Origin: Apostichopus japonicus
Taxonomy: Eukaryota; Echinodermata; Holothuroidea; Aspidochirotida; Stichopodidae
Reading direction: 5' to 3'
NCBI RefSeq assembly: GCF_037975245.1
Contig: NC_092577.1
Span: 14,067,013 to 14,131,012 of the forward strand
DNA: 64,000 bases
In this document: positions 19,478 through 62,639 of the stretch, piece after piece
How the letters are laid out: each line of letters opens with the position of its first letter
Numbering within the stretch: position 1 is the stretch's first letter
Translations under genes and position numbers: made by a program
The notes under the pieces: generated by a model
What the model was told of the DNA's origin: nothing
The model's input: only the letters and a program-made list of their open reading frames with translations
The model's database searches: none

Positions 19478-37587
<18,110 letters not shown>

Positions 37588-49494: not shown

Positions 49495-49600
49495 CTTACG
49501 TTTACAACCAGCCTGGTCATTTGACCAGGTTGGTTGGGCGAAATGACCAGGCTGGTTGGGCGAAATGGCAATTGGGCGAAATGGTTGTTGGGCGAAGTGA
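49495..49600. repeat. short minisatellite
   Basis: Four or five copies of GGTTGGGCGAAATGACCAGGC-like units of variable length (10-22 bases). Confidence 0.75.
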
Positions 49601-49732
49601 CTAGAAAGCATGTAAACCAGAATGCATTGCATTGAGGTTTCGATGACTTCAGTAGGCCTACACTAGAAAGTTCTGCTTGTTAGTATAGCAGAACTAGCTG
49701 TTACTATAGAAATGGTCCGAACCACCATTTTG

Positions 49733-49925
49733 GCCTTCTCGGCCTTTTGGCTAAGATCATGTGTAGTATCTGTTCCCTTTCGAGGGGAATTGTGATGCAC
49801 AGCCGACGATGATCACACAGTCACAGTCCCGATGCAAAGGGACTGGGGCTGAGAGCGGATCAGTCGTTTGGTAGTTTGGTTTTCGTGCCCAGGTTCTTTC
49901 CTGGGTGACTTTTTCTTAAAAAAGT
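49733..49925 (+). mobile_element. SINE with U2 snRNA-derived head
   Basis: Positions 49735-49775 match the first part of U2 snRNA (CTTCTCGGCCTTTTGGCTAA, then GATCATGTGTAGTATCTGTTC), including the GTAGTA branch-site-recognition word. After 49776 the sequence departs from U2 and enters an unrelated body of about 145 bases ending in TTTTTCTTAAAAAAGT. A perfect 12-bp duplication ACCACCATTTTG lies at 49721-49732 and 49926-49937, showing that the whole 193-bp unit was inserted as one piece by target-primed reverse transcription. SINEs with snRNA-derived heads (SINEU) have been described in crocodilians. A simple U2 pseudogene would not explain the body. It is not a functional U2 gene because most of U2 is missing. 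Confidence 0.85.
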
Positions 49926-50059
49926 ACCACCATTTTGATACAATAACACTATGGCATGATAAACACAGGTCAGTCTGTTCATGGAGGTAAAAACAGACCT
50001 CCATGGTCTGTTGTACGTGGCTATACACACAATAGGGGTCTTGGAGGTCGGCCAAGTCT

Positions 50060-50968
50060 GAGGATCTGGGCAGACAAATGGAAGGTGACCTTTGAGCCAT
50101 CGAAATGCAAGGCACTGACAATCATAAGAAAGAGGAACCCTACCAAGCTGGATCTCATGTTTGGCAACACCAAACTGGCCGAAAAAGAGGAGCTGGAAAT
50201 TCTGGGAGTCACAATTGACAGCAAGCTGACCTAGGCAAAACACATCTCCAAGGTATCATCCAGAGCTGGACAGAGACTGGGTGCCCTGAGGAAAGTTGCC
50301 AACAAATTGGACATCAGGGGACGAGCAACAGTCTACAAGGCTCAGGTCCGTAGCGTGATGGAGTATGCCTCTCTTTCATGGATGAGTGCCTCGCCCACCA
50401 CCTTAAGACTACTTGACTCGATTCAGAAGAAGGCCCTTCGCATCATTGGCACAAGTGAGGAGAAAGCACGAACTGAGTTGAACATCTCATCTCTTCACCA
50501 AAGAGTCAGGTGGCAACAGCGACTGTTCTCTATAAGATGCACACCAACTCGTACCCACCGGACCTAAAGGCAATGCTACCACAACCCTTTGTAGCTAGAC
50601 GAGCTACACGCTCTAGCTTGTCGATGCCTGGCCATGCTTTCACAGTACCAGTTTCGAGGACAGTCTCCACTGGCAGGACCTTCATTCACTCTGCGGTACA
50701 AGTATGGAATAGCCTACCAGATAGCGTAGTTGTTGACATTTCTGACAACGGTGCTCAGTCCTTTAAGTGCAGGGTGCATCAGCATCTTATTTCCTGTGCC
50801 TGATGCTGTAGTAAGCCCCTCCCTTGTTCTAAGTTGCTGTGGACCACTGATTGGCTCATGTGGATTTCCTTTATAGTACCCTGTTGTCTATATTTGGTCT
50901 TGACTTCTGTCAATCTGCATGGGCTATTGTTCACTTTAGCATTTTATAAAAAAACAAAATAAAAAAAA
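50060..50968 (+). mobile_element. 5'-truncated non-LTR retrotransposon (LINE) 3' end
   Basis: Coding remnants correspond to the C-terminal part of a jockey/CR1/RTE-like LINE reverse transcriptase protein. The frame to 50234 has WKVTFEPSKCKALTIIRKR and LEILGVTIDSKLT; after an in-frame stop at 50232-50234 come LGALRKVANKLDIRGRATVY and SVMEYASLSWMSASP. A frameshift near 50505 leads to RTFIHSAVQVWNSLPDSVV, ending in QSFKCRVHQHLISCA and a stop at 50801-50803. A 3' UTR of about 150 bp and an A-rich end (about 50947-50968) follow. The catalytic part of the reverse transcriptase is absent. The precise clade is uncertain. Confidence 0.85.
50062..50803 (+). pseudogene. LINE reverse transcriptase C-terminal pseudogene
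   Basis: Broken into at least two frames with an internal stop (TAG at 50232) in the otherwise conserved motif SKLTWAKHI. It lacks the FADD-type catalytic motif and the endonuclease. The final ORF contains the W-N-LP-D-VV pattern and QSFK typical of the C-terminus of LINE ORF2 proteins. Confidence 0.82.
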
Positions 50969-60787: not shown

Positions 60788-61575
60788 TTAGGTTTGGTAG
60801 TGAGGTATTGCCCGCGGTTTTAAAATTTTATGCCTTTCGTTACGGAGTAACAGTTTCTCTGTGAACGCATTCTTTTTCTGTAAGAAATCAGTCTCATTGT
60901 TACATAGACGTGCGTATCGTAAGACTTCCCCTTTAATGAAGCCTTTAAATGTGGCAAGTGGGTGTGCAGAGTTTCTGTCGAGGTATTGGAAGGTTTCCGT
61001 GGGTTTGGTGTAGACTTTGGTGTCTAATAACCCATTGGTTTCGAACCTTGTACCTTTGAAGATTTTCAAATCTAGGTATGTTACCTCGGTGTTTGATATT
61101 TCTACCGTAAGCTTTAAGAAGCGGTGAATTTCATTCAACCTTTTTACTAGGTGTTCAAGTTCCTGATATGTACCGTCGTAGAGCAATAGAATGTCATCTC
61201 TATAGCGGAGCCATTTTAAGATTTTATTATCTGTCGGTAAAATCTGGTTTTCAAGTCTATGCATGACGATATCGCAGATTTCCGGAGAGGCTTGGCTACC
61301 CATGGCGCAACCGATCTTTTGTAGATAGAATTGGTTATTGAACTCGAAACAGTTTCTTGTTAAGATGAGTTCAATTAGTTTGCGCATGGATATGGAAGAT
61401 ATTTTATTTATTCCATATTCGCTTTTGTCCGCCTTTTCATAGACTTCTTGACATATATCTAATGCCTCCTCTTGGGGAGTATTGGTATACGTGGCGACGA
61501 CATCGAGTGTAGCAAGTAGGCTACTACTGCTAATGGTAATGGGGTGGCTTCCACAATTTACAGAATGTAATTTGT
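60788..61575 (-). pseudogene. Penelope-like reverse transcriptase (5'-truncated)
   Basis: The open frame 61387-60788 (199 residues from its first ATG) extends in frame upstream to about 61575. There LLATLDVVATYTNTPQEEAL is the motif-A region, with the catalytic D in LDVVATYTN (the usual form is LDV-SLYTNIP). QKIGCAMGSQASPEICDIVM (motif B region) and WLRYRDDILLLYD (motif C; YRDD in place of the common YVDD, both catalytic D present) follow. The thumb includes HPLATFKGFIKGEVLRYARL. It ends at a stop after IPHYQT. No GIY-YIG domain is encoded before the terminal repeat. The N-terminal fingers are lost at the inverted repeat. Confidence 0.88.
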
Positions 61576-62639
61576 GTCTTTCACATAGGTGCTTTGTTTT
61601 AATACAATAGGAAGCACGAAATAGTCCACAAATTGCGATATTTTTTCGGTCGGTGATCCGTTTCCGCTTATTATCGGGCCCTCCCTTAAAAATACTTCAG
61701 GTTCTTGGCGACTACGTTGCGTTAGATAGTGTAAAACCGACTACACCCCTTCTTTCATTAATAAGTATATCATAATTATCTCATTGAATATATCTTGTTT
61801 TATGTTTTTTCCTTGGGGTGAATCTGGTGTCATAATTTCGCGCAAAAGAAAAAACGAATCGACGCAATAATAGTGTATCCATTGTACATGCACTGTTGAG
61901 CGTTGTTAAATATGTGTCTATCGAGAAAAAATATGTGCACAAAAAAAGCGTGTCTGCAACGTTTCTGGTTTTTCTAGTTTTTGGCGAAATGTTTCACCAT
62001 TTTGCATCTAAGCACTCACAATTAACCAAAAATTTCCAAGGGGGAGGGGGAGAACCCCTCCCCTAGACCCCTCCCCAGGTTGCAGATCACTAAAGTGCTA
62101 CCATCGGGATGTCGGCCCCCCCCCCTTTCTCAAAATCCTGGAGCCGCCCCTGGTAGTAGTACATTCACAGAAAGTATTTTATTTCCTTTTTTCAAAAACT
62201 GAAGTTTTGGGGCCCGTGTGAAATGGTCTATGTTTTACGCATTAAACACCATTGACAATTCAGTATATAGGCTATGACCTATATATAGGTTCACTTGAGT
62301 TATGGTGGCATGCTAGTGTTAGAGCAGCAGGAGAACATCTTGATTGATACATTATCAATCGGGATCTTGTGCTTTGTGGCTTGGGTGTTGGAGAGCAAGA
62401 ATGGAAGTACAAATGGTGGAAAAATTGGGTCAACTGAGGCAATTTAAGACCACTTCAGGCCTCCCAGGAGCAGCGTACGAAATTTTGTTTACAATACCGG
62501 CAATAATTCTCAGCCGGTATTAAATTGAATCAAGCGGTATTAAATAGAATTAATACCGGCATCAAATAGACCAATCACATTATAGCGAATTTTGAAGCTG
62601 TTATGCTCTGAGCTAGTGTTAATCCCTCTTGCCGCCTCG

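Follow-up and report, generated by a model that had tools for sequence, protein, structure and literature searches.

A SINE copy with a U2 snRNA-derived head in the genome of the sea cucumber Apostichopus japonicus raises the question of where such a head comes from and how an element of this kind is switched on. An internal Pol III promoter is generally considered necessary for SINEs. To our knowledge, snRNA-headed SINEs have no obvious internal Pol III promoter, and the acquisition of their heads remains an open issue. Kojima is said to have described, in 2015, crocodilian SINEU elements that have U1 or U2 heads and are mobilized by Tx1-Mar into a Mariner. The copy addressed here lies in a 64,000-nucleotide stretch of A. 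japonicus DNA, which was analyzed as a whole and is referred to as the window. Genomic searches covered 671,581,487 bases in 35 contigs, including C16 (46.04 Mb), C4 (29.64 Mb) and C18 (20.39 Mb).

Results

Organization of the U2-headed SINE in the window

The SINE copy of the window combines a U2-derived head with an unrelated body and a 3′ hairpin between two target site duplications (TSDs; Table 1). The original prediction of a SINE with a U2-derived head is borne out by a 41/41 identity between the head and the fetched U2 genes (seven gene starts from five U2 loci), and the coordinates, the head, the body and the perfect 12-bp duplication were all correct as first noted. The head contains CATGTG, as do the fetched U2 genes, at the place of CAAGTG in the Rfam consensus. 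U2 nucleotides (nt) 1–4 are missing from the window copy, which has GC at positions 49733–49734 instead. U2 is the sole Rfam family that reaches its gathering score within the window. The Rfam U2 alignment of the window SINE depends on the 5′ end; its score is 47.4 bits (gathering score, 46), or 45.5 bits when the SINE neighbourhood is searched alone. Membership of the body in a known RNA gene, which would have refuted the prediction, fails in the Rfam scan, where the body gives no match beyond chance level.

The predicted A-rich tail could not be upheld, since the element does not end in poly(A) and has a fixed family end, AAAAAGTA, instead. The consensus 3′ end is a constant ...CTTTTTCTTAAAAAGTA, which directly follows the hairpin CCCAGG-TTCTTT-CCTGGG. 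In the window copy, the first A of the right duplication is also the A of the family's terminal GTA. The window copy is 97.9% identical to the consensus of 39 copies over 188 bp, and the whole element has a strong predicted fold (z −4.4 to −4.5). The U2 nt 38/39 position that is retained in the head corresponds to the site at which SINEs and U2-specific LINEs are joined in U2 genes and in the heads of other copies.

Table 1. Parts of the U2-headed SINE copy and their positions in the window
Feature	Position	Strand	Basis or remark
Left TSD, ACCACCATTTTG	49721..49732	+	Perfect 12-nt direct repeat
U2-headed SINE copy, older subfamily S3, junction TTCCCTTTCGAGGGG	49733..49925	+	
Head, U2 snRNA nt 5–45	49735..49775	+	U2 gene identity; Rfam RF00004
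Head position matching U2 nt 38/39	49768..49769	+	Read off sequence
Body, origin unknown	49776..49887	+	Rfam matches at chance level only
3′ hairpin CCCAGG TTCTTT CCTGGG	49888..49905	+	Predicted folds; conserved among aligned copies
3′ end TGACTTTTTCTTAAAAAAGT; family form ends AAAAAGTA	49906..49925	+	
Right TSD, ACCACCATTTTG	49926..49937	+	

Other features were observed in the window. Short direct and inverted repeats of TTGGGCGAAATG (49505–49603) are located directly upstream of the SINE, and an LGVTIDSKL-like reverse transcriptase remnant, read by eye, is located downstream (50050–50300). A minus-strand RVT_1 match (60791–61696) represents a reverse transcriptase remnant, and positions 23786–24514 contain part of an Iml2/TTC39-type gene (Pfam PF10300, 1.7e-39).

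Family size and subfamilies

The U2/body junction of the window copy has 637 + 618 matches in the genome (1255 in total; ≤2 mismatches), and its reversed control has 0. The same junction is thus shared by many copies, and the multicopy family that had been suspected is confirmed. A second, younger junction type, TTCYYYT(A/C)GGGAATGG, is found 122 + 109 times (231 matches; control 0), and the SINE tail has 1041 + 960 genomic matches (control 0). The window element itself gives at least 47 matches among those listed, and the best 40 of 2676 first-look candidates were scored. At least part of the U2 head is present in 20/20 loci drawn by the exact tail; these were chosen from 100 listed loci, two of them as apparent clusters. 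The loci were selected for their best match or for an exact junction or tail, which biases the sample towards young copies.

Thirty-nine full-length copies comprise 28 of subfamily S3, which has the window junction type, six of S2, three of S1 and two that are unclassed. The S1 head extends to U2 nt 49 or 50. S1 and S2 are regarded as young because their nine copies diverge from their own consensus by only 0–2%, compared with 1–13% for the S3 copies. The element satisfies the definition of a SINE, being ∼195 bp long, non-coding, multicopy, flanked by TSDs and present in 5′-truncated copies. The U2 snRNA-derived head common to the family also satisfies that of SINEU, which is a known class of SINEs with snRNA-derived heads according to two reports (PMC5753468, PMC8010984). 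The requirement for a Pol III SINE (SINE1/2/3) is unmet, as Rfam and tRNA scans of the window reveal no 7SL, tRNA or 5S head, and no tRNA was found anywhere in the window.

SINE copies embedded in U2 genes

Forty-six U2 places were scored, of which 42 are on C16 and four on C15, and most of the C16 places form a tandem array with a 645-bp spacing. The SINE end is joined to U2 nt 39 onward in eight matches (six in the C16 array, one on C20 and one on C5). The C5 match has 2 mismatches and lies beside other SINE matches; the other seven joints were read in sequence. The search patterns were limited to insertions on the same strand as U2 and to joints near nt 38/39. The exactness of the 3′ joint is therefore no independent test, since the search pattern required that joint.

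The embedded copies differ in their 5′ organization. L068 and two units in L069 are arranged as U2 1–45, SINE and U2 39–194. L062 is a double insertion in which U2 1–40 is followed by a truncated SINE, a SINE from nt 39 on and U2 39 onward. A truncated copy in L069 has U2 1–53 upstream and U2 39 onward downstream, with a 15-bp duplication. Another truncated copy, in L067, is preceded by U2 35–53 and, before that, by a LINE A end. L070 on C20 contains an S3-type copy in a diverged U2 gene. When 200 bp upstream were compared with the upstream region of the array U2 genes, the identity was 100% in four units (L068 and three in L069) and 99.5% in L062, and the region was absent at L067 and L070. 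Consequently, 5/7 embedded units consist of the U2 promoter, the 5′ part of U2, the SINE and its AAAAAGTA end joined to the rest of U2. The last four bases of AAAAAGTA equal U2 nt 35–38, and every 3′ U2 remnant in the array stretches that were read, which had been selected for joints or reverse transcriptase hits, resumes at nt 35–38.

The truncated embedded copies each have a breakpoint of their own. The junctions of the four full-body embedded copies differ by one to three bases, and duplication of a unit followed by mutation is not excluded for these four. With regard to subfamilies, the young form that occurs in U2 genes downstream of the U2 promoter is S2. None of the joints found at U2 nt 38/39 provides an embedded source with the S1 junction. 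S3, the subfamily of the window copy, has a single embedded copy, the diverged one (87%) on C20; the absence of S3 from the C16 array is consistent with turnover without proving it. The embedded copy E69b is identical to L040, one of the 39 full-length dispersed copies, and this identity gives no direction of transfer.

LINE families joined to the same U2 base

Three LINE families are joined to U2 at nt 38/39 in the array that also holds the SINEs. LINE A has 12 joints (...GAATAAACTTGAAAGAAAAGTA followed by TCTG), with U2 1–50 upstream in the copy read. LINE D has four joints (...GAATAAACTTGAAAGAAAGTA followed by TCTG) with U2 1–25 upstream, and LINE B has seven joints with U2 1–30 upstream. 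Except for the copies read, LINE A and LINE D joints were assigned from their last letters. LINE A has a zinc-knuckle ORF1, and its ORF2 contains Exo_endo_phos (APE endonuclease), RVT_1 and zf-RVT domains; LINE B has the same domains, with a partial endonuclease match. The ORF2 of LINE A is 51% identical to that of LINE D and 36% identical to that of LINE B. Its nearest solved relative is LINE-1 ORF2p (5.6e-82), and R2 is matched at 3e-20. PMC4640811 describes a common 3′ flank from U2 nt 39 on for Utopia and Keno, and an APE endonuclease in Keno and not in Utopia. LINE A meets both Keno characteristics, the APE endonuclease and the 3′ flank from U2 nt 39, and for this reason looks Keno-like by sequence; its clade was not placed by a reverse transcriptase tree.

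The LINE C locus (L063, G000:C16:31041000-31050900) has a different arrangement. LINE C, with a 961-aa ORF2 and a long A run, lies between the U2 upstream region and the U2 start; downstream of its 3′ part come GTTAGTTATCGTT and then U2 from nt 1.

With respect to mobilization by a Tx1-group LINE, the SINE shares a U2 site with LINE-1-like LINEs, and no shared 3′ hairpin was found. When the tail is compared with LINE 3′ ends, as originally proposed, only the ∼11 terminal nt of the SINE resemble those of LINEs A and D (CTTGAAAGAAAGTA versus CTTAAAAAGTA). A partnership of the SINE with LINE A or D remains unproven because this terminal likeness is too short. The SINE consensus has no blastn match to LINEs A–D at E ≤ 0.05, and a looser search against LINEs A and B gave a best value of 0.044, to LINE B. 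The SINE was also considered as a SIDE, an internally deleted LINE, and this candidate was rejected for lack of similarity to LINEs A, B, C and D.

A genome search with an exclusion pattern detected no abundant LINE that has the 3′ hairpin of the SINE and a different upstream sequence. The pattern has 26 matches, of which eight were fetched and 18 were judged by their letters only. Longer SINE matches are present in L056, L060 and L061. Only the last 36–41 nt are in common with the SINE in L054, L055, L057, L058 and L059, and the upstream DNA of these five loci is unrelated except between L055 and L058. None of the eight fetched loci was shown to be a LINE. L055 (G000:C18:9022846-9023272) and L058 (G000:C18:8975229-8975655) are 87% alike over 302 bp; of the SINE, both contain no more than the last 39 nt, and they may represent either a duplication or another element with this tail.

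Ends and target sites of dispersed copies

Nearly all SINE copies reside outside U2 genes. Forty copies extend to U2 nt 7 or less. The exact U2 +1 start, ATCG, is present in 15 of them; of the remaining 25, four have three of U2 nt 1–4 and 21 have one or none. U2 upstream sequence was not found in the 5′ flanks tested of these dispersed copies. TSDs were resolved in 39/60 copies, with lengths of 8–19 bp in 38 copies and 25 bp in one. For the target analysis, 12 array or low-complexity rows (L024, L030, L040 and L045) were dropped. GTA is present at the 3′ joint in 24 of the 27 remaining copies, and position −1 of the target is an A in 22 of these 24. Pyrimidines occupy the next position in 20 and the one after it in 21. 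This dispersed target, A^YY, is a relaxed form of the GTA^TC that U2 has at nt 38/39.

Nested, dimeric and clustered copies

Eleven matches, including the embedded L062, connect the SINE end to nt 39 of a SINE head, and seven of the ten dispersed joints of this type were read. L043 combines a young S2 copy (95% to consensus), which has one difference from the embedded E69c, with the remainder of an old S3 copy (82%) downstream of it. L075 has a young truncated copy (98%) within an old one (88 and 89%), and the insertion duplicates U2 nt 39–45 of the older head. The younger insertions of L043 and L075 are later than their host copies and are located at the U2 site in the head. L073 looks like a retrocopy of a dimeric RNA made in a U2 gene that holds two SINEs, and the dimers L074, L076, L077 and L078 could equally be such retrocopies.

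Head-to-tail strings of 5′-truncated SINEs were observed in L040, L045, L011, L029 and L081. In L040 (G000:C2:21947345-21948895), new copies appear to have inserted one after another at AAAAAGTA^TC. This sequence, composed of the SINE end and a TSD starting with TC, imitates the U2 site and is generated by the SINE itself. L081 (G000:C5:11042000-11046000) contains a tandem ∼3 kb unit that bears a SINE cluster, and further junction matches in this region extend up to C5:11065986.

Palindromes with one SINE per arm were observed in L079 (G000:C3:5844900-5848200; inverted repeats of 740 bp, 100%) and L080 (G000:C7:5898900-5902800; inverted repeats of 1566 bp, 99.9%). The ∼99% likeness of L079 and L080 suggests that passenger transport contributes to the spread of the SINE as well. 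The younger-junction matches include two further inverted pairs (C2:13.10 Mb and C3:25.41 Mb).

Discussion

Residency in U2 genes as the probable source of the head

The SINE family is probably a non-autonomous parasite of U2 snRNA-gene-specific LINEs, with its expression and its LINE partner being inferred. In our best reading, the U2 genes serve the SINE as a home, a promoter and a head source, where transcription is again an inference made without expression data. A U2-specific LINE would carry SINE RNA into a U2 gene at nt 38/39, and the U2 promoter, which is of the snRNA type and uses Pol II, would drive transcription of the embedded copy into a U2–SINE chimeric RNA starting at U2 +1. The protein of a U2-specific LINE would then reverse transcribe this RNA from its AAAAAGTA end. 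Landing in a U2 gene would create a new source gene, and landing elsewhere would leave a promoterless dead copy, as the window copy may be. A 5′-truncated copy that lands in a U2 gene would obtain a fresh U2 head and a new junction, and the head would thus be the upstream part of the target gene.

The SINE copies in U2 genes probably explain both the origin of the head and the switching-on of the parasite. Their location within U2 genes, at the position used by U2-specific LINEs, makes capture of the 5′ part of the target gene a likelier origin of the head than the template switching that was first considered. We also favor, with less assurance, the general proposal that U2-headed SINEs arise by residency, in which a U2-LINE site, a chimera behind the U2 promoter and head renewal by truncated landings are combined.

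The most durable alternative is that another, loosely specific LINE is the main mover and that the U2 insertions are rare visits through a U2-like AGTATC target. It is compatible with the U2 promoter as a source, and it draws support from the dispersal of nearly all copies and from the failure to find a U2-specific LINE with a matching 3′ hairpin. We nevertheless judge it unlikely, given that seven insertions occur at one U2 base versus ∼0.0002 expected at random (assuming 2000 copies and 110 genes) and that ten joints between a SINE tail and a dispersed head are found versus ∼0.002 expected. Among these ten, L043 and L075 alone are clear cases of separate insertion; retrocopied dimers may account for the rest.

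An ordinary SINE with an internal Pol III promoter, for which the copies in U2 genes would be mere side products, is more doubtful. Its promoter would comprise the A-box-like TGGCTAAGATC in the head and a weak B box in the body. The A-box-like string was read by eye against the A-box consensus, and inspection by eye revealed no usual B box. Pol III would moreover have to pass a TTTTT that ends 11 nt before the SINE 3′ end in the consensus, and the CCTTTTGG and GGTTTTCG strings in the SINE are also Pol III stop-like. Placement of the S2 form behind the U2 promoter, when the nine S1/S2 copies are the young ones, likewise argues against an internal promoter.

Little room is left for an explanation resting on sequence identity between the consensus head and the U2 gene, which have 45 identical bases in common. 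The 3′ side has only AGTA in common with U2, and the joint between the SINE and U2 is the same as the LINE joints. The explanation is further weakened by the 15-bp target duplication of a truncated insertion and by the L075 insertion in a dispersed head, which duplicates U2 nt 39–45. A one-off chimera made by template switching during LINE reverse transcription, offered in the original prediction as the alternative to a family, can be discarded despite the R2 template jumps to U12 snRNA and tRNA recorded in PMC3414825, because the junction is shared and inherited, with two related junctions common to 1255 (reversed control, 0) and 231 copies.

Relation to known elements

Residency in U2 genes sets the family beside, and apart from, several known systems. 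Like SINEU elements, the family has the 5′ part of an snRNA as its head, is flanked by TSDs and comprises subfamilies whose junctions hint at changes of the head. Unlike SINEU, which is reported from crocodilians, it has an echinoderm host, copies in U2 genes and candidate source genes.

R2 and R2/R1 SIDEs are short non-autonomous elements in Drosophila 28S genes, as described in PMC3414825. Like these SIDEs, the SINE is short and non-autonomous and is found in a multicopy RNA gene, where it shares the insertion site of a target-specific LINE, whose machinery it presumably uses. SIDEs are internally deleted LINEs, whereas the SINE has a U2 head, lacks similarity to LINEs A–D and is dispersed in over 1000 copies. 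The integration site and the 3′ flank from U2 nt 39 are shared with Keno and Utopia (PMC4640811); Keno and Utopia are autonomous and protein-coding, in contrast to the non-coding SINE of ∼195 bp.

Among the publications listed by the literature searches, none describes a U2-headed echinoderm SINE or a SINE inside U2 genes, which does not show absence. The new elements here are the host phylum, the U2 residency and the candidate source genes; the class SINEU is already known.

Implications

Rfam-based counts of U2 genes may be inflated in such genomes because the window SINE passes the U2 gathering score. A single assembly displays most of the joints predicted by residency, namely SINEs within U2 genes downstream of the U2 promoter, truncated insertions that have fresh U2 heads, LINEs joined to the identical U2 base and related copies dispersed in the genome. 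If residency is true, the head would be a captured target together with a borrowed promoter. Next to internal Pol III promoters and template switching, this would be a further way for SINEs to arise, and it could account for the repeated additions of heads reported for SINEU.
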